NCBI GenBank assembly: GCA_018606725.1
Contig: JAGYID010000005.1
Span: 1-54,309, forward strand
Source of the DNA: Acidobacteriota bacterium
Lineage (GTDB): Bacteria > Acidobacteriota > Polarisedimenticolia > Gp22-AA2
DNA length: 54,309 nucleotides
Direction of reading: 5' to 3'
Shown here: in pieces, positions 14,612-23,509 of the stretch
Layout of the letters: the number at the start of each line of letters is the position of its first letter
Numbering within the stretch: position 1 is the stretch's first letter
Notes under the pieces: model-generated
Seen by the model: the letters and a program-made list of their open reading frames with translations, nothing else
Told to the model about the DNA's origin: nothing
Database searches by the model: none
Made by a program: the position numbers and the translations under genes

Positions 14612-16942
14612 GTGATCGGCACAACCCTCTCCCACTATCGCATCCTCGATCGGATCGGCGAGGGTGGCATGGGGGTGGTCTATCGCGCCAAGGACGAACG
14701 CCTCGACCGCGACGTCGCCCTCAAGGTCCTGCCGGCGGGCGCCTTCGCCGACGAGTCCAGTCGGAAGCGCTTCCGCGGCGAAGCGCTGGCACTGTCGCGG
14801 CTCAATCATCCCAACATCGAGACGGTGCATGACTTCGATCGACAGGACGGGGTCGACTTCCTGGTCATGGAGTACATCCCCGGGGTCACGCTCGATCGGC
14901 GACTGGCGGCAGGGCCGCTCCCGGAACCCGAGATCCTGCGGCTCGGGTCGCAGCTCGCCGAGGGTCTCGCAGCGGCGCACGCGCAGGGGGTCGTGCACAG
15001 CGATCTGAAGCCGGGGAATCTCCGCGTCACGCCCGATGGGCGACTGAAGATCCTGGACTTCGGTCTGGCCCGGCTGTTGACGTCGCGCGACGACGGCGCG
15101 CCGACCGTCACCCTGGTCGGGAGACCGGTCCTCGCCGGCACGCCGCCCTACATGGCGCCCGAGCAGTTCCGGGGCGCGCCGAACGACGCGCGCGTCGATC
15201 TCTACATGGCCGGCGCCGTGCTCTACGAGATGGCGACCGGCCGGCGCGCCTTCGATCAACCCGCCTGCGAGACGCTGCTGCGAGCGATCCTGCATGGAGA
15301 TTCGCCCGCGCCGCGGTCGCTGAATCCGGTGATCTCGATCGAGCTCGAGCGGGTGATCCTGAAAGTCCTGAACACGGACCCCCGGAGCAGGCACCAGTCG
15401 GCCGGCGAACTTCTCGCCGACCTGAAGCGGATCGGCGCCGCGGAGGGACGCGGCGACGCGCCCCGGCGCCCGGGCCGCCGGACGTGGGCCGCCGTCGCGG
15501 CGGGCTCCGGCGTGCTGATCGCGCTGGGCGGGATCGGCGCGTTCCGCCTCCTCGCCCCCGGCGGGCCGGTCGGATCGCTGGCCGTCCTGCCGTTCGCCAA
15601 TGCCGGCGGCGACCCGGACGCGGAGTACCTGAGCGACGGCCTCACCGAGGGGATCATCAACAGCCTCGCGCTCATCCCGCAGCTCAAGGTCATCGCGCGG
15701 GCCTCGGTGTTCCGCTACAAGGGACAAGACATCGATCCCGGGACGGTGGGACGGGACCTCGGCGTCCGCGCCGTCCTGGTCGGGTCGGTGGGTCATCGGC
15801 GGGATGATCTGATGGTGAGCGCCGAGCTGGTTGACGCGGAGGATCGCCGGCACCTGTGGGGCGGGCAGTACACGCGCCCTGTCTCGGACATCTTGAAGGT
15901 GCAGGGGGAGATCGCCGGCCACATCTCGGAGAGCCTGCGCCTGCGACTGACCGGTGACGAGAAGAGTCGTCTGGCGAAGCGATCGGCAGGCAGTCCGGAG
16001 GCCAACCGACTATACCTGCAAGGCCGATTCTTCGAGAACAAGGGCACCCGGGACGGCTTCATGAAGGCGGTCGAGTACTTTCAGAGCGCCATCGCCGCCG
16101 ACTCCGGCTACGCTCCGGCTTATGCGGGACTGGCCGAGGCCCACTACTGGGTGTCGAACATGTACGTCTCTCCAACGGAGGCGATGCCGAAGTCGAGGGC
16201 GGCCGCGACGAAGGCGCTGGAGCTCGACGAGACGCTCGGCGAGGCGCACGCTTCCCTCGGGCGGGTCAAAGCGCTCTACGACTGGGACTGGGCCGGCGGC
16301 GGGGAGGAGTTCCGCCGGGCGATCGCCCTGAGCCCGGGCAGCGCCGAGGCGCACCTGGCCTATGGCAATCACCTGGCGGTGATGGGCGATCTGGATGGAG
16401 CGCTGGCCGAGATGGCCACGGCAGGCGGTCTCGACCCGCTGTCCGCCGTCATCGGAGTTCAACGGGCACTCCTTCTCCAGGCGGCGGGCCGTGACGAACA
16501 GGCAGCCGAGGAGGCGCGCCGGGCACTCCACCTGGAGCCGTCCGCGGCGCAGGCTCGCGTGGTGATCGGGATCGTCGATCTCAGGCAAGGGAGAATCGAG
16601 GAGGGGATCGCAGAAATCCAGAGGGCCTTCAGTCTCGATGACAATGCCGACACTGGCGGCTGGCTGGGTTACTACTACGCCGCCTCGGGGCGCAGGGACG
16701 ATGCCATGAGGCTCGCCAGGCGACTGGAGACGCGGCAGGGTCAGTTTGTGCCGGCCTGGAGCGTCGCCATGATCTTCGCCGGGATGGGCGATGCCGACCG
16801 GACCTTCGAGTGGCTGGCGAAGGCCTGCGACGATCGCTCCGAGGGCATTTCCTGGCTCAAGATCGAGCCCAGGCTGAAAGACCTGCGCTCCGATCCCCGC
16901 TACCGCGACCTGCTTCGACGGGTGGGTCTCGCGTCCGGATGA
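14612..16942 (+). CDS. Membrane Ser/Thr protein kinase fused to TolB-like and TPR domains
   Basis: Protein of 776 residues. Residues 9-275 are a Hanks-type kinase: glycine loop GEGGMG (16-21), Lys38 in VALKVL, catalytic HSDLKPGN (129-136) and DFG (149-151). A transmembrane helix follows (about 291-314). A TolB/adenylate-cyclase-associated domain comes next (about 321-455, with LAVLPFANAGGDPDAEYLSD), then TPR-type helical repeats to the end. The catalytic motif is HSD rather than HRD, so activation may not need loop phosphorylation. The GTG start at 14612 has GGAGGA seven bases upstream. This architecture is common in acidobacterial genomes. The TolB/TPR part should lie in the periplasm if the kinase is cytoplasmic. 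Targets are unknown. Confidence 0.92.
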   Translation: MIGTTLSHYRILDRIGEGGMGVVYRAKDERLDRDVALKVLPAGAFADESSRKRFRGEALALSRLNHPNIETVHDFDRQDGVDFLVMEYIPGVTLDRRLAAGPLPEPEILRLGSQLAEGLAAAHAQGVVHSDLKPGNLRVTPDGRLKILDFGLARLLTSRDDGAPTVTLVGRPVLAGTPPYMAPEQFRGAPNDARVDLYMAGAVLYEMATGRRAFDQPACETLLRAILHGDSPAPRSLNPVISIELERVILKVLNTDPRSRHQSAGELLADLKRIGAAEGRGDAPRRPGRRTWAAVAAGSGVLIALGGIGAFRLLAPGGPVGSLAVLPFANAGGDPDAEYLSDGLTEGIINSLALIPQLKVIARASVFRYKGQDIDPGTVGRDLGVRAVLVGSVGHRRDDLMVSAELVDAEDRRHLWGGQYTRPVSDILKVQGEIAGHISESLRLRLTGDEKSRLAKRSAGSPEANRLYLQGRFFENKGTRDGFMKAVEYFQSAIAADSGYAPAYAGLAEAHYWVSNMYVSPTEAMPKSRAAATKALELDETLGEAHASLGRVKALYDWDWAGGGEEFRRAIALSPGSAEAHLAYGNHLAVMGDLDGALAEMATAGGLDPLSAVIGVQRALLLQAAGRDEQAAEEARRALHLEPSAAQARVVIGIVDLRQGRIEEGIAEIQRAFSLDDNADTGGWLGYYYAASGRRDDAMRLARRLETRQGQFVPAWSVAMIFAGMGDADRTFEWLAKACDDRSEGISWLKIEPRLKDLRSDPRYRDLLRRVGLASG

Positions 16943-17109: not shown

Positions 17110-18012
17110 ATGTCCATGACAGCGAGAGGTGACGCGCCATGGCGGCGGCTCGCCGATGGGGCGCGGGCGGTCGGCGTCTGGCTGGCGCTCGCCTCGGTCG
17201 CCACCTGTCCGGTCACGGCCTCGCCCGCGCTTGCGCCGCCGCCGGCGCCAACGCGCGTCGACGTGCGCACCTCCCGGGGCGACTTCGAACTGATGGTCTA
17301 CCGGCCCGCCAGTCAGGCGCCGCCGGCCGAGGCTTCGGCCGGCCGGCCGCCGGCGGGCGCTGCGGCGGGCCCTGCGCCGGCGGTGCTGTTGATCTCCGGG
17401 GAGGGGGGGTGGGCGAGCTTCGTCGACCGCGTCGCGGGGATGCTGGCGGGCGAGGGGTACTGGGTCGGCGGGCTCGACGCGAAGCGGTACTTCGCAGAGC
17501 CTCAGGATGACCGCGGGGCGCTCGCCGCCGACGTGCGGATCTACGCCGACGCCCTGCTCAGGGCGGCGGGTCGCCCGGCCGGATCGCCTTTGGTTCTCGC
17601 CGGCTTCTCGTTCGGGGCCGACGTGGCGCCCCGGGTCGCCGCCGATCCCGGCTGGGGCGGACGGGTGCGCGGTCTCCTGTTGATCGCCCCCGACGCGATC
17701 GGCAGCCTGCAGTACCGGCTGCTGGAGATGATCGGCATCGAGTACACCGATCACACGTTCGAGGTGGCCGCGGCGCTGCGCGAGGCCGCCGGCATCCCGA
17801 TGCTGTTCGTGCACGGAGAGAACGATGGATCCTCGGCGGCGCCGGCGCTGGCGCAGGGGGCGGCCGAGCCGAAGCGGCTGAGCGTCGTCCGCGGCGCCGG
17901 TCATCATTTCTCGGGACTGGACGATCGCCTCAAGGCGACGCTGCGCGATGGCCTCGGCTGGCTGCTGCAGCAGTCGCCGCGGCCGCGCGCCGACGGCGGG
18001 ACCCGACCATGA
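17110..18012 (+). CDS. VirJ-like alpha/beta hydrolase, exported
   Basis: Protein of 300 residues in the VirJ/AcvB hydrolase family. A signal peptide spans about residues 15-40. The core has SGEGGW (96-101), the nucleophile elbow GFSFG (165-169, Ser167) and a late GAGHHF that supplies the His. Related AcvB of Agrobacterium is known to hydrolyse lysyl-phosphatidylglycerol. The ATG at 17110 is chosen because GGAG lies about ten bases upstream; a second ATG two codons later is possible. Its stop overlaps the start of mprF (ATGA), so both are almost surely one operon. Predicted to act in the periplasm on aminoacylated lipid, by context and homology only. Confidence 0.82.
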   Translation: MSMTARGDAPWRRLADGARAVGVWLALASVATCPVTASPALAPPPAPTRVDVRTSRGDFELMVYRPASQAPPAEASAGRPPAGAAAGPAPAVLLISGEGGWASFVDRVAGMLAGEGYWVGGLDAKRYFAEPQDDRGALAADVRIYADALLRAAGRPAGSPLVLAGFSFGADVAPRVAADPGWGGRVRGLLLIAPDAIGSLQYRLLEMIGIEYTDHTFEVAAALREAAGIPMLFVHGENDGSSAAPALAQGAAEPKRLSVVRGAGHHFSGLDDRLKATLRDGLGWLLQQSPRPRADGGTRP

Positions 18013-20630
18013 CGGAACCGGCCCCCGGCGAAGAGCTGCCGAGCGCCGCGCTGCCCGAGCCGCAGCGGCTGCGGCTGTTCCTGTCGAGGTCGGTGGAGGC
18101 GCTGCGACCGATCTGGCCGTGGCTCATCCTCGCGCTGATCGCCTGGGTCGGCTGGCACGAGCTGCGGCAGGTGGATGTCGGGACGGTGCGCGGTCTCCTG
18201 CGCGACGCCGACCCGACGCTCATCCTGATCCTGCTGGGCGCCACGGCGGCGAACCTGGCGGTCTTCGGACTGTACGACGTCGCCGCGCTCGGACCGCGCT
18301 CGCAGCCGCCGCCGCTGGCGGCGCGCTGGAAGGTCGGCGTGCTCAGCTTCGCGTGGAGCAACTTCCTGACCTTCGGCCCGCTGGCCGGCCCGGCGCTGCG
18401 CCTGTGGCTGTACCGGCCGATCGGGGTCGAAGGGGAGCGGGCCCGCTCGGCGCTGGCCGCGGTCCTGTCGGCCCTGTCGCTCGCCCTCCTCGGCTGGTGC
18501 GGCGCGGTCTGGATGCCGCTGCCGGCCGCCATCGACGGCTTCCCGGCCCGGCTCGGCGCGGGGGTCGTTTTCGCCGCCCTCGCGGCGGCGATCCTCCGCC
18601 TCCTGCCGCGACTGCGTTTCGCCCCCGCCCTGATCCGTCGCTGGGAGGCGCGTACCCTGCTCCTGTCTGCGGTCGCCTCGCTCGACTGGTTCCTGGCCTG
18701 GGTGGTGTTCGACCTGGCGCTCGACGGCCTGCACGGCGGGATCGATCAGAAGCTCTCCATCACCGCTTTCTTCACCGGCCAGCTGATCGGCCTGATGAGC
18801 TTCACCCCGGGCGGTCTCGGATCGGCGGATGCCTGGTGGATCGTGTCGCTGAGCGGCGTCGCGGGCGGGCACGATCGGGTGCTGGCGGCCCTCGTCTTGT
18901 ACCGCTGCATCTATTACGTCCTGCCCTGGGCGGTCGCGAGCCTGGTGCTGGCCGGCCGCCTGGTCCGGACCGGCCCCAACATCAATGCCGTCCTGCGCGC
19001 CAGCGTGGCGTCCTACGCCTTCCTGTGCGGCGTCGTGCTGCTCGCCAGCGCGGCCACGCCGTCGCTGTCCGACCGGGCGGCGTTCCTGATGCACACCGTG
19101 CCGGTGGCGCTGGTCGAGATCTCGCACGCCGCCTCGGTGGTGCTCGGCTTCCTGCTGCTGGTGATCTCCCGCGGTCTGGTGCGCGGCTACCGGGCCAGCC
19201 ATCGCCTGGCGCTGGCGCTGTTCGTCGCCGGCGCGGTCACCACGTTCCTGAAGGGGCTCGATTTCGAGGAGGCGATCCTGTCCCTCGCGGCGGTGGCGAT
19301 CCTGCTGGTCGCCCACCGGCCGTTCGAGCGCGAGGGACGGATGCGGCCGTCGACCGAATTCATCGTCTCGGTCGGTACGTTCGCGGTCGTGCTGTTTGCC
19401 GCCGTCGGGTTCGGCTCGTTGTCGCACGTGCCGCGGCTGCCGCTGGTGTTCACCCGCTTCGAGCACTTCGCCTACGGCGCGCGGTTCCTCCGCGGTCTGC
19501 TGATCCTGGCGGCGATGGCGGCGGTCGCCGGGCTGCACTTCGCGCTGCGCGCCCGGCCGCGCGATCCGCTGCCCGACGCCGTGGCGATCGACCGGGCCAT
19601 CGAGGAGACGCGCGCCTGGAGGCGCGGCACCAACCCGCTCCTGGTCGCCTCGGGCGACAAGGCAATCTTCCGGGCAGCGCGCCCCGCGGAGGGGTTCATC
19701 GCCTACCGCACCGCCGGCCGCTTCATGGTCGCGTACTCCGACCCGGTCTGCCCGCCGGGCCGGGAGCGGGCGCTCCTGGCCGCCTTCCTCGAGCACGCCT
19801 CGGCCTGGGACCGGGATGTCATCCTCTACCAGATCGCCCCGGCGACGCTGCCGGTGGCGCACGACTTCGGCTTCACGTTCTTCAAGCTCGGCGAGGAGGG
19901 GCTCGTCGATCTGGCGCGCTTCGACCTGAAGGGGAACAAGGCCAAGTCGTGGCGCCACGCCATGAACAGCGTCGAGAAAGAGGGGGGGCGATTCGAAGTC
20001 GTGCCGGCGGCGGAGGTCAAGGCCCTCCTGCCGGAGCTGCGCGCCATCAGCGACGACTGGCTCGCCGAGAAGCACGTCGTCGAGAAGCGTTTCTCGCTCG
20101 GCCGCTTCGAGGAGACGTACCTGACGCGGACCCCCTGCGCGGTGGTGCGCGACGCCGCCGGCCGGGCGGTCGCCTTCGCGAACCTGCTCGAGGGGGCGCC
20201 GCAGGATGAGCTGTCGGTCGACCTGATGCGTTACAGCGCCCGCCGCGAGCAGGCGGCCGGCCTGCGCGACGTGATGGACTACCTGTTCCTGCAGCTGATG
20301 CTGCACGGCAAGGAGCGCGGCTATGCCCGCTTCAACCTCGGCATGGCGCCGCTGGCATCGGTGGGCGAGGAGCGCTGGGCCCGGCCGTTCGAGCGCTTCG
20401 CGCGCCTCGTCTTCCGGCACGGCGAGCACTGGTACAACTACCAGGGCCTGCGGCGCTACAAGGAGAAGTTCGATCCGATCTGGGAGCCGCGCTACATGGC
20501 GTACCAGCACCCGTGGGACTGGCCGCTGGCCAGCACCACGACCGCGGCGCTGATCGCCGGCGGCTGGCGGGCGCTGCTGCTCCCCGGCGGCGGACAAGAG
20601 GCGTCAGCCGGCAGCGGGCACGCGGCGTGA
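18009..20630 (+). CDS. mprF: MprF-type aminoacyl-phosphatidylglycerol synthase/flippase
   Basis: Protein of 873 residues with the full two-part MprF layout. The first 550 or so residues are a polytopic membrane domain, including FTPGGLGSADAWW, that moves the modified lipid across the membrane. The C-terminal 280 residues are the cytoplasmic transferase that uses aminoacyl-tRNA, with FNLGMAPL and YQGLRRYKEKFDPIWEPRY as family marks. Lysine or alanine as the amino acid cannot be told by eye. The ATG overlaps the preceding hydrolase stop, and its own stop overlaps the next hydrolase start (GTGA). Making aminoacyl-PG lowers surface negative charge and gives resistance to cationic peptides and acid in known systems. 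Confidence 0.93.
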   Translation: MTEPAPGEELPSAALPEPQRLRLFLSRSVEALRPIWPWLILALIAWVGWHELRQVDVGTVRGLLRDADPTLILILLGATAANLAVFGLYDVAALGPRSQPPPLAARWKVGVLSFAWSNFLTFGPLAGPALRLWLYRPIGVEGERARSALAAVLSALSLALLGWCGAVWMPLPAAIDGFPARLGAGVVFAALAAAILRLLPRLRFAPALIRRWEARTLLLSAVASLDWFLAWVVFDLALDGLHGGIDQKLSITAFFTGQLIGLMSFTPGGLGSADAWWIVSLSGVAGGHDRVLAALVLYRCIYYVLPWAVASLVLAGRLVRTGPNINAVLRASVASYAFLCGVVLLASAATPSLSDRAAFLMHTVPVALVEISHAASVVLGFLLLVISRGLVRGYRASHRLALALFVAGAVTTFLKGLDFEEAILSLAAVAILLVAHRPFEREGRMRPSTEFIVSVGTFAVVLFAAVGFGSLSHVPRLPLVFTRFEHFAYGARFLRGLLILAAMAAVAGLHFALRARPRDPLPDAVAIDRAIEETRAWRRGTNPLLVASGDKAIFRAARPAEGFIAYRTAGRFMVAYSDPVCPPGRERALLAAFLEHASAWDRDVILYQIAPATLPVAHDFGFTFFKLGEEGLVDLARFDLKGNKAKSWRHAMNSVEKEGGRFEVVPAAEVKALLPELRAISDDWLAEKHVVEKRFSLGRFEETYLTRTPCAVVRDAAGRAVAFANLLEGAPQDELSVDLMRYSARREQAAGLRDVMDYLFLQLMLHGKERGYARFNLGMAPLASVGEERWARPFERFARLVFRHGEHWYNYQGLRRYKEKFDPIWEPRYMAYQHPWDWPLASTTTAALIAGGWRALLLPGGGQEASAGSGHAA

Positions 20631-22183
20631 GCGCGCGGCGATGCCGGCGCGCGGTGGCGAGCGTGGCGGCCGTGGTGGCATCGATGACGGCGCTGCTGGC
20701 CGCCTCGCCGGCGGCGGTCGGAGACGGCTTCGTCGAGGAGAAAATCACGCTGCCGATCTTCGGGACGGTGACCGTCTACCGTCCCGAGCCGGTGCAGCGG
20801 ACGCGCGGCGTCGTGCTGTTCGTATCGGGCGACGGCGGCTGGAACCTCGGCGTGGTCGACATGGCCCGCCGCAGCGCGGCGCAGGCGCTGGTCGTCGGTC
20901 TGTCGATGCCGGCGTGGCAGAAGGTCGTCGAGAAGGACCCGTCGCGCTGCTGGTACCCCGCCGGCGAGCTGGAATCGATCGCCCAGGCGGTCGAGAAGAC
21001 CTATCACCTGCCGCGTTATCTCAAGCCGATCCTGGTCGGCTACTCCTCCGGCGCGACCGTCGTCTACGGCGCCCTGGCGCAGGGTCCGGGCGACGCCTTC
21101 GCCGGCGCCGTCAGCCTCGGCTTCTGCCCCGACGCCGAGATCGCCCGCCCGTTCTGCGGGCAGAACGGCTGGAAGCCGACGTACGCGCCGGAACATCGGA
21201 AGAGCCTGCTGCCGCCGAGGCTCGATCTCCTGAAGCGCGACGACGAGGCCGCCCGCTGGGTCGTCCTGCAGGGGCAGATCGATCAGGTCTGCGACCCGCC
21301 GGCGGTCGCCCGCTTCGCGGCGCAGATCCCGGCCGCCCGCCTGGTGGCGCTGCCGAAGGTCGGCCACGGCTTCTCGGTGCCGCGCAACTGGGGCGATGCC
21401 TACGACCAGGTGATCGAATCACTCCTCGAGCCGCGGCCGGCCTGGGAGGCGGTCGCGGAGACGCCGATGGCGGACGCCGGCAGCGCCCCGGAAGGGGTCA
21501 GGGCGCGATTGCGGGATCTCGACCTGCCGCTGCGCGTCGACTGGCCGGCCGGGGCGCGTGAGGCGCTGATCTTCGTGTCGGGGGACGGCGGCTGGGCCGA
21601 GCTCGATCAGCGGGTCGCCGCCGCCCTGCGGGCGAGAGGCGTCGCGGTCATCGGCTGGAACGCGTTGCGCTATTTCTGGGAACCGAAGACCCCCGGCGAG
21701 TTCGCCGCCGACCTGGCCCGTGTCGTCGAGGTCCTGCCGGAGTCGCTGCCCCTGTTCGCGGGCGGCTACTCGTTCGGCGCCGAGGTCGTGCCGGTCACCG
21801 TCCTCGGCCGCGGTCGGCAGGCCCACCCGCCGCTGTCGCGCCTTCTCGGGCTGGTGCTGCTCGCCCCGGGGCCGTATGCCAGCTTCGAGGTCAGTCCGCT
21901 TGACTGGCTGCGCCAGAGCGAAAGCCCGACGCGCCACCCGGTGCGCGCCGCCATCGACGCCGCCGGCAATCTCCCCGTGCTCTGTCTCGAGCCGGCCGAC
22001 GGCGCCGACTCGGGGTGTCCCCAGGAAGGCCGCAGCGGGACCGGCATGGTCACGACCCGCCACCTCCCCGGCGGGCATCATTTCGCCGGCGACTTCGATC
22101 TCCTAGCGCAGCGCATCACGGACTTCCTGAAGCAGCCGGCCGTCGACGCCGGGGGCTTGACGGAAGCGCCTCCCGGGCGATAG
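20627..22183 (+). CDS. AcvB-like double-domain hydrolase (aminoacyl-PG hydrolase candidate)
   Basis: Exported protein of 518 residues with two VirJ-type hydrolase units. Each has the SGDGGW loop (67-72 and 318-323), a Ser elbow (GYSSG 138-142, Ser140; GYSFG 380-384, Ser382) and a late His (GHGF about 246; GGHHFAGD near the end). Residues 1-32 form a signal peptide. The start is taken as the GTG at 20627, overlapping the mprF stop, because translation from there gives a proper signal peptide. Agrobacterium AcvB, with a similar two-part layout next to its LPG synthase LpiA, is a lysyl-PG hydrolase. Both Ser here look intact, so both halves may be active. Confidence 0.85.
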   Translation: MSARRCRRAVASVAAVVASMTALLAASPAAVGDGFVEEKITLPIFGTVTVYRPEPVQRTRGVVLFVSGDGGWNLGVVDMARRSAAQALVVGLSMPAWQKVVEKDPSRCWYPAGELESIAQAVEKTYHLPRYLKPILVGYSSGATVVYGALAQGPGDAFAGAVSLGFCPDAEIARPFCGQNGWKPTYAPEHRKSLLPPRLDLLKRDDEAARWVVLQGQIDQVCDPPAVARFAAQIPAARLVALPKVGHGFSVPRNWGDAYDQVIESLLEPRPAWEAVAETPMADAGSAPEGVRARLRDLDLPLRVDWPAGAREALIFVSGDGGWAELDQRVAAALRARGVAVIGWNALRYFWEPKTPGEFAADLARVVEVLPESLPLFAGGYSFGAEVVPVTVLGRGRQAHPPLSRLLGLVLLAPGPYASFEVSPLDWLRQSESPTRHPVRAAIDAAGNLPVLCLEPADGADSGCPQEGRSGTGMVTTRHLPGGHHFAGDFDLLAQRITDFLKQPAVDAGGLTEAPPGR

Positions 22184-22186: not shown

Positions 22187-22295
22187 CGAAGCGAATTCGA
22201 ATCTCCGCCGGCGGCCCTCCCGCCGGGTTCCCTGATCTTCGGCTGCACCGTGCGCCGGCACCTCCCGCGCGTCGTGGCTCCCGGTACAATAACCA

Positions 22296-22335
22296 CCGGC
22301 GCGGGTGGAAAGCGCGCCGGCGCGGCGCTATTTTT
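22296..22335 (+). terminator. Terminator-like hairpin with competing upstream hairpin before the RidA-like gene
   Basis: AGCGC (22311-22315) pairs with GCGCT (22325-22329) and is followed by A and five T. This is the only hairpin plus T-tract noticed in the window. Just upstream, CCGGCGCG (22296-22303) and CGCGCCGG (22313-22320) form a perfect 8-bp hairpin that uses part of the terminator stem, so the two are mutually exclusive. It sits 130 bases after the AcvB-like stop and 8 bases before the next ATG. It may end the mprF operon, act as an attenuator for the next gene, or both. GC-rich DNA makes chance hairpins common. Confidence 0.4.
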
Positions 22336-22342
22336 GATCGGC

Positions 22343-23509
22343 ATGATCAACGACACGGACATCGACGCCGTCCAGGCGGTCAGGGTCGCCTCGCCGACCA
22401 CGGTGGAGGTGCATGTCCGCGCCCGGCCGGAGGCGGGCGCCGATTTCGAGGCCCAGGCCCGCTCGATGTACGCCGGCATGCTGGCGGCGCTGCGGGAGCA
22501 CGATCTGCAGCCGAATGCCGTGGTCGCCGAGAAGATCTTCCTCTCCGATGTCGGCGCCCAGGCGCCCCGGCTCGACGCCATCCGGCGTGAGGTCTACGGC
22601 GATCCGGCGAGAGGCGCGCTGCACCCGGCGGCGACCTGCATCGGGGAGACGCCGACGGGACCGGAAGCGATCTGCGAGCTGCAGGCGGTGGCGGTTGCGA
22701 CGATCGGCGGTGCCAGCCTGCCGTCGCGCAATCTGTACGGGCTCGAGGGACAGGCGTCCGGCAGGGTGATCGAGGCGGGCGGCCTGCGCCACCTCTACCT
22801 GTCCGGCCTCAGCACCGTTCCCACAGCGGGCGGGGGCGATTTCGGCACGCAGGTTTCCACGATGCTGACGGATGCGGAGGCGGCGCTACGGGGCGAGGGG
22901 ATGACGTTCGCCGACGTCGTGCGGACGTGGATCTATCTCGCCGACATCGAGCGCGACTACCCCGCTCTCAACCGGGCCCGCCGCGACTTCTTCGAGTCGC
23001 GCGGCATCGTGACCCCGCCGGCGAGCACCGCCATCCGCGGCGTGCCGTTCCCCGCCGACCGGGCCTGCGGGCTGGACCTGCGCGCGGTCGCCGGGACCGG
23101 GACGCGGCGCGTCACCCCGTTCCGTATCTCGTCGATGAACGAGGCGTCGACCTACGGCTCCGATTTCTCGCGCGGCATGCGCCTCGAACTGGAGGACCGC
23201 GCCATCATCTATGTCTCGGGGACGGCGAGCATCGACGCGAAGGGGCGGGTGGCCCACCCGGGCGACATCGAACGGCAGACCGACTGGATGCTGAAGAACA
23301 TCGAGGCGCTGCTCGCCTCGCAGGGCGCCGGCTACGCCGACGTCGTCTCCGCCATCACCTACCTGAAGGACCCGGACTACGCGGCGCCGTTCCGGCGGGT
23401 CGCCGCCCGGCGCGGCCTGCCGGCGCGCGTTCCCAACACGCTCTGCGTCGCCGACATCTGCCGCCCCGAGTGGCTGTGCGAGATGGAAGTGACCGCCATC
23501 CGCGTCTGA
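22343..23509 (+). CDS. Tandem RidA-fold protein, chorismatase (FkbO/Hyg5)-like
   Basis: Protein of 388 residues with YjgF/RidA-type halves. The C-terminal part has VVRTWIYLADIERDY, TPPASTAIRG, VSGTASIDAKGRV and a GDIERQTDWML segment. These follow the order of motifs in the chorismatase branch (FkbO, Hyg5), which hydrolyses chorismate. A plain imine/enamine deaminase role is also possible. The start at the ATG at 22343 is uncertain: no ribosome site is visible and a terminator-like hairpin lies directly before it. The next gene begins 17 bases after its stop. No signal peptide is seen, so it is cytosolic. No aromatic or secondary-metabolite genes lie nearby to support a chorismate substrate. 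Confidence 0.75.
   Translation: MINDTDIDAVQAVRVASPTTVEVHVRARPEAGADFEAQARSMYAGMLAALREHDLQPNAVVAEKIFLSDVGAQAPRLDAIRREVYGDPARGALHPAATCIGETPTGPEAICELQAVAVATIGGASLPSRNLYGLEGQASGRVIEAGGLRHLYLSGLSTVPTAGGGDFGTQVSTMLTDAEAALRGEGMTFADVVRTWIYLADIERDYPALNRARRDFFESRGIVTPPASTAIRGVPFPADRACGLDLRAVAGTGTRRVTPFRISSMNEASTYGSDFSRGMRLELEDRAIIYVSGTASIDAKGRVAHPGDIERQTDWMLKNIEALLASQGAGYADVVSAITYLKDPDYAAPFRRVAARRGLPARVPNTLCVADICRPEWLCEMEVTAIRV

Follow-up and report, generated by a model that had tools for sequence, protein, structure and literature searches.

An overlapping Acidobacteriota operon joins MprF to VirJ/AcvB-type hydrolases with three intact predicted active sites

Among the systems closest to the locus described here, Agrobacterium tumefaciens pairs an MprF-type synthase with a two-domain AcvB-type hydrolase in the lpiA-acvB operon (also Rhizobium lpiA-atvA), and Pseudomonas aeruginosa carries MprF with a periplasmic VirJ-family hydrolase as PA0920-PA0919, which we take to be an alanyl-phosphatidylglycerol (alanyl-PG) synthase and hydrolase gene pair. 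The S336 and H433 residues of AcvB and its partnership with LpiA have been proven experimentally (PMC13197417), and the enzyme is described as a Ser-His dyad. The AcvB N-domain, by comparison, is reported to be inactive and dispensable; its function is called elusive, and the domain is considered a possible remnant of evolution (PMC13197417, PMC13135905). The VirJ protein of octopine Ti plasmids is a single-domain C-type lysyl-PG hydrolase, encoded with vir genes rather than with mprF, and VirJ alone hydrolyzes lysyl-PG (PMC13135905). Brucella abortus VirJ is again a two-domain protein and is linked to type IV secretion; its first domain, D1 (9rc4), has lost the nucleophile (GIGQG). The N-type hydrolase is thus far described only as the inactive domain of AcvB/VirJ.

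The window analyzed, an entire 54.3-kb contig from an Acidobacteriota genome, holds an overlapping three-gene unit on the + strand at 17110-22183. Gene A (17110..18012, + strand, ATG start, with an alternative ATG at 17116) encodes a 300-aa single-domain VirJ-family (C-type) serine hydrolase; mprF (18009..20630, + strand) encodes an 873-aa bifunctional aminoacyl-PG synthase/flippase; and gene C (20627..22183, + strand, GTG start) encodes a 518-aa two-domain AcvB-type hydrolase, putatively periplasmic. A and mprF overlap by ATGA (18009..18012, + strand), and mprF and C overlap by GTGA (20627..20630, + strand), so that the open reading frame coordinates bear out the hydrolase-MprF-hydrolase order and the two junctions given in an initial annotation of this DNA. 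Putative N-terminal signal peptides, judged by eye, lie at about 17110-17223 (+) in A and 20627-20722 (+) in C. A serine/threonine protein kinase with TPR repeats adjoins the operon upstream (14612-16942), and an open reading frame with three RidA-like (PF01042) stretches adjoins it downstream (22250-23509). A wider operon including either neighbor was considered and rejected, as no homologue of either neighbor was found in DNA flanking the six further loci with this gene order; the accompanying search for a sigma-70-like promoter found none.

Profile and structural comparisons gave consistent identities to the three proteins. Gene A (E 3e-15, 57 bits) and the C-terminal half of C (E 3e-41, 141.8 bits) both matched the Pfam VirJ family PF06057 above its curated cut-off of 22. 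Gene A also matched the AcvB structure 9xhm (E 1e-10), as did gene C (E 7e-36) in an alignment spanning both domains, with the N-terminal half of C matching the AcvB N-domain (9xhm) and Brucella VirJ D1 (9rc4). The AlphaFold model of A (pLDDT 84) adopts an esterase-type alpha/beta-hydrolase fold, and structure comparison returned esterases (best Z 20.3); the two-domain model of C (pLDDT 90.8) returned, among others, Brucella VirJ domain 1 (9rc4). The AcvB crystal structure was absent among the structural matches listed for A or C from a structure library extending through April 2026. C is best described as two VirJ-type alpha/beta-hydrolase domains in one putatively exported protein (export judged by eye) adjoining mprF. 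The MprF protein passed NCBIfam NF033480 for bifunctional MprF (667.9 bits over 31-850, cut-off 600), matched the LPG_synthase_C domain PF09924 (E 9e-82), and was the sole PF09924 match of the window's genome. Full-length flippase and LPG_synthase_C domains are present and the flippase Tyr-Arg-x-x-Tyr is retained; the Pfam TM model PF03706 scored 23.2, under its own cut-off of 33.4.

The operon encodes three intact predicted active sites, one N-type and two C-type. In A, the predicted site comprises Ser167 (nucleophile, GFSFGAD, codon at 17608..17610, +), Asp239, and His265. The N-domain of C (20732..21451, +), N-type by homology to the AcvB N-domain and Brucella VirJ D1, has Ser140 (GYSSGAT, codon at 21044..21046, +), Asp219, and His247. 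The C-domain of C (21524..22141, +), assigned by PF06057 and the AcvB alignment and equivalent to the AcvB catalytic domain, has Ser382 (GYSFGAE, codon at 21770..21772, +) and His484, which align with AcvB Ser336 and His433. A clear acid partner is seen only in A (D239) and the N-domain of C (D219), the C-domain being without one. The three serines named as hydrolase serines in the initial annotation therefore hold as plausible sites, each being exactly the serine of a GxSxG motif accompanied by a His. Alignment of the seven three-gene orthologue sets left these residues in place as well, with nucleophile and His columns invariant at all three sites in 7/7 sets, and with the acid of A and of the C N-domain invariant across the seven loci. 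In the AlphaFold models each Ser sits at a strand-turn-helix nucleophile elbow, as in serine esterases. Chance GxSxG matches were ruled out by this invariance and by the elbow position.

The A-mprF-C order was found in 7 of 41 genomes of this Acidobacteriota class (G000, G001, G008, G010, G018, G024, and G030), spanning five families and sharing no neighbors in the sampled flanks. An ATGA or TTGA overlap joins A and mprF in six of the seven loci, and an ATGA or GTGA overlap joins mprF and C in all seven. Since the order and overlaps recur in six other genomes and every orthologue keeps the nucleophile and His at each site, the three-gene unit is not a product of chance. Across the seven loci MprF averaged 62% identity and A 53%, with 60% in the N-domain of C and 56% in its C-domain. 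The seven MprFs group in a single clade (support 1.0), indicating that the order probably arose once and has persisted since. Within the class, another four genomes (G003, G004, G005, and G009) have mprF-C without A, and other members of Acidobacteriota have either mprF-C without A or different hydrolase sets. A scan for gene A in named genomes beyond the class gave one strong match, an Acidobacteria MAG, among the matches listed. Conservation of the order in Acidobacteriota, raised as a question by the initial annotation, thus holds for seven genomes but not in general; with 7/41 genomes of the class and a single MprF clade, a general Acidobacteriota trait is ruled out.

Other hydrolase arrangements were also encountered. 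Two are independent: an N-type single domain, MprF, and an AcvB-type protein in Vicinamibacteria SSF20 (L069:2750-8597, JAIBCN010000105.1), and N-type, MprF, N-type at L186:6099-10440 (G219:C6). Two tandem single-domain C-type hydrolases occur in Bacteroidota (L077, L078, L088, and L095) and Acidobacteriota (L174, L175, and L178), some with GYSRG motifs; MprF lies near them in six of the seven loci, with none in the L175 stretch examined. Sphingobium loci (L068, L070, L071, and L074) have the order C-type, AcvB-type, MprF, with a dead AcvB N-domain and an extra upstream protein bearing an unusual GQSFGAN motif.

By analogy with LpiA/AcvB, we consider it rather likely that the operon works as a self-contained module for aminoacyl-phosphatidylglycerol turnover, its most likely function being periplasmic deacylation of MprF-made aminoacyl-PG to control the level of this lipid. 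MprF would take an amino acid from aminoacyl-tRNA, link it to PG, and shift the product to the outer leaflet, where A and the two-domain C, if exported as their N termini suggest, would cleave the aminoacyl ester to yield PG and the amino acid. One co-translated unit would in this way set the steady level of the modified lipid. Ser382 is the direct counterpart of the proven AcvB site, Ser167 represents a separate C-type lineage, and Ser140 is of the N-type subfamily, whose members are dead in Agrobacterium and Brucella but in this operon, as in several phyla, appear to have an intact catalytic site. Homology, gene order, overlaps, catalytic-residue conservation, and the contrast between intact and dead N-domains are observed here, and from there we infer periplasmic export, catalysis at each site, the lipid substrate, and the amino acid. 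The analogy with LpiA/AcvB gives a good foundation to the built-in cycle of synthesis and removal suggested initially.

The amino acid is probably neutral. Docking and mutants of AcvB assigned Asp271 and Asp340 to the alpha-amino group and Asp370 to the lysine side chain, and producers of alanyl-PG have Ser or Thr at position 370, Pseudomonas aeruginosa included (PMC13197417). At the three AcvB positions, the C C-domain has Asp320, Glu386, and Ser419, and A has Glu98, Asp171, and a Ser, such that the lysine-recognizing set is matched in neither. Because Ser replaces Asp370 in both, as in the Pseudomonas homologues, alanine or another neutral amino acid is probably a likelier substrate than lysine, as judged from this one position, and lysyl-PG should not be assumed. 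The orthologue L036 has Asp at the Asp370 position. The AcvB membrane-loop Trp is retained in C as Trp427. In the N-domain of C, the acid four residues after the nucleophile (Asp340 in AcvB) is replaced by Thr; its substrate may therefore differ.

The hydrolase domains fall into two subfamilies, N-type and C-type, which separate with support of 0.997/0.985 in a tree of 220 domains. Single-domain N-type proteins with a GVSEG or similar motif, Asp, and His adjoin MprF in genomes of other Acidobacteriota classes, and in several (e.g., L179, L182, L183, and L191) the sole VirJ-like gene detected beside mprF is N-type, so an N-type hydrolase may be sufficient as the partner of MprF. No N-domain was recognized by the N-type profile in the Pseudomonas relatives examined. 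Together with the differing residues at the three sites (Glu98/Asp171/Ser in A, Asp320/Glu386/Ser419 in the C-domain, Asp69 and the Thr at S+4 in the N-domain), the depth of the split and the stand-alone N-type partners of MprF lend themselves to a division of labor, in which the N-type site and the two C-type sites would act on different lipids or ester positions, for instance alanyl-PG and another aminoacyl lipid, among several MprF products. We regard this as a tentative possibility, for the genome has a single MprF and residue differences alone do not prove substrates. In a more speculative form, which we find somewhat doubtful, an active ancestral N-type enzyme would remove a different aminoacyl lipid or ester isomer than the C-type sites, so that one MprF would write several separately erased marks.

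We gathered 71 two-domain relatives by VirJ-type active-site motif patterns or whole-genome profile searches. The C-domain Ser and His were intact in all 71; 32 of these proteins also had an intact N-domain pair and the other 39 a dead N-domain, with uneven sampling of the two classes across phyla. Intact N-domains occur in Acidobacteriota, Bacteroidota, Steroidobacteraceae and other Gammaproteobacteria, and Phenylobacterium, and dead ones mainly in Burkholderiales, relatives of Rhizobiaceae, and Sphingobium. Between pairs with C-domain identity of 0.3-0.4, N-domain identity was 0.40 for intact versus 0.27 for dead N-domains, and at C-domain identity of 0.4-0.5 it was 0.46 versus 0.31, the pairs in both ranges being nonindependent. 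This contrast, which is not a formal test, points to constraint on intact N-domains comparable to that on the catalytic domain, and to its relaxation in dead ones. Given that intact copies are kept across phyla, that dead copies drift faster, and that stand-alone N-type proteins occur beside MprF, the AcvB-type N-domain most likely represents a second hydrolase that has decayed.

These patterns also bear on whether Ser382 is the only site relevant to aminoacyl-PG, with A and the N-domain acting on unrelated esters or regulating the complex. The AcvB N-domain is inactive and dispensable, and an autoinhibitory role has been proposed for it (PMC13197417, PMC13135905), which would fit. So would the relatives of A outside the operon: in the family to which the window belongs, six genomes have an A paralogue elsewhere, and five of these six copies, including that of the window's own genome, have exchanged Ser for Ala and His for Arg. 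Because these relatives have mostly lost both residues, noncatalytic roles probably exist in the A lineage. The paralogues form a clade of mostly dead copies conserved in the six genomes; the copy in the window's genome (L044:5538-6485, - strand, G000:C150; GFAYGAE, GGDRQF) lies next to a malic enzyme gene. The operon copies of A, however, keep the triad in all seven loci while 5/6 outside paralogues have lost Ser and His, a pattern that speaks for selection on catalysis within the operon. All catalytic residues of the operon proteins are likewise kept in 7/7 loci, the conservation of intact N-domains is close to that of C-domains, and A is linked in the operon; we therefore think it unlikely that Ser382 alone matters. 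Equally a C-type domain, A might also be a recent duplicate of the C-domain of C with no role beyond dosage, but in the tree it falls outside the whole set of other C-type domains, among them those from Proteobacteria and Bacteroidota (0.951). It is therefore no local duplicate, and we reject this origin as highly improbable.

Returning to the turnover module that we favor, the comparison with described systems can be drawn more closely. Agrobacterium lpiA-acvB is without the upstream hydrolase A, and its AcvB has GIGKG in the N-domain, with Gly at the nucleophile position, where C has GYSSG with Asp and His; AcvB also has Asp370 where A and the C C-domain have Ser. The contrast with Agrobacterium proposed initially accordingly stands for the extra gene and the greater number of intact sites; the double-domain architecture is not new, AcvB being two-domain as well, with its N-domain nucleophile lost. 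The Pseudomonas aeruginosa pair has one hydrolase gene rather than two. VirJ of octopine Ti plasmids resembles A in size and fold, but A forms a lineage of its own, branching apart from the other C-type domains, and Brucella VirJ D1 is a homologue of the C N-domain.

In these terms, some soil Acidobacteriota have three intact predicted sites where Agrobacterium has one, and the domain whose Agrobacterium version is dead seems functional in them and in several other phyla. As the N-domain subfamily has intact, conserved catalytic residues in several phyla and stands alone beside MprF in some, its role is directly testable with proteins such as C. More broadly, bacteria vary widely in the number and kind of hydrolases attached to one aminoacyl-lipid synthase, a variety that is relevant to antimicrobial-peptide and acid tolerance.
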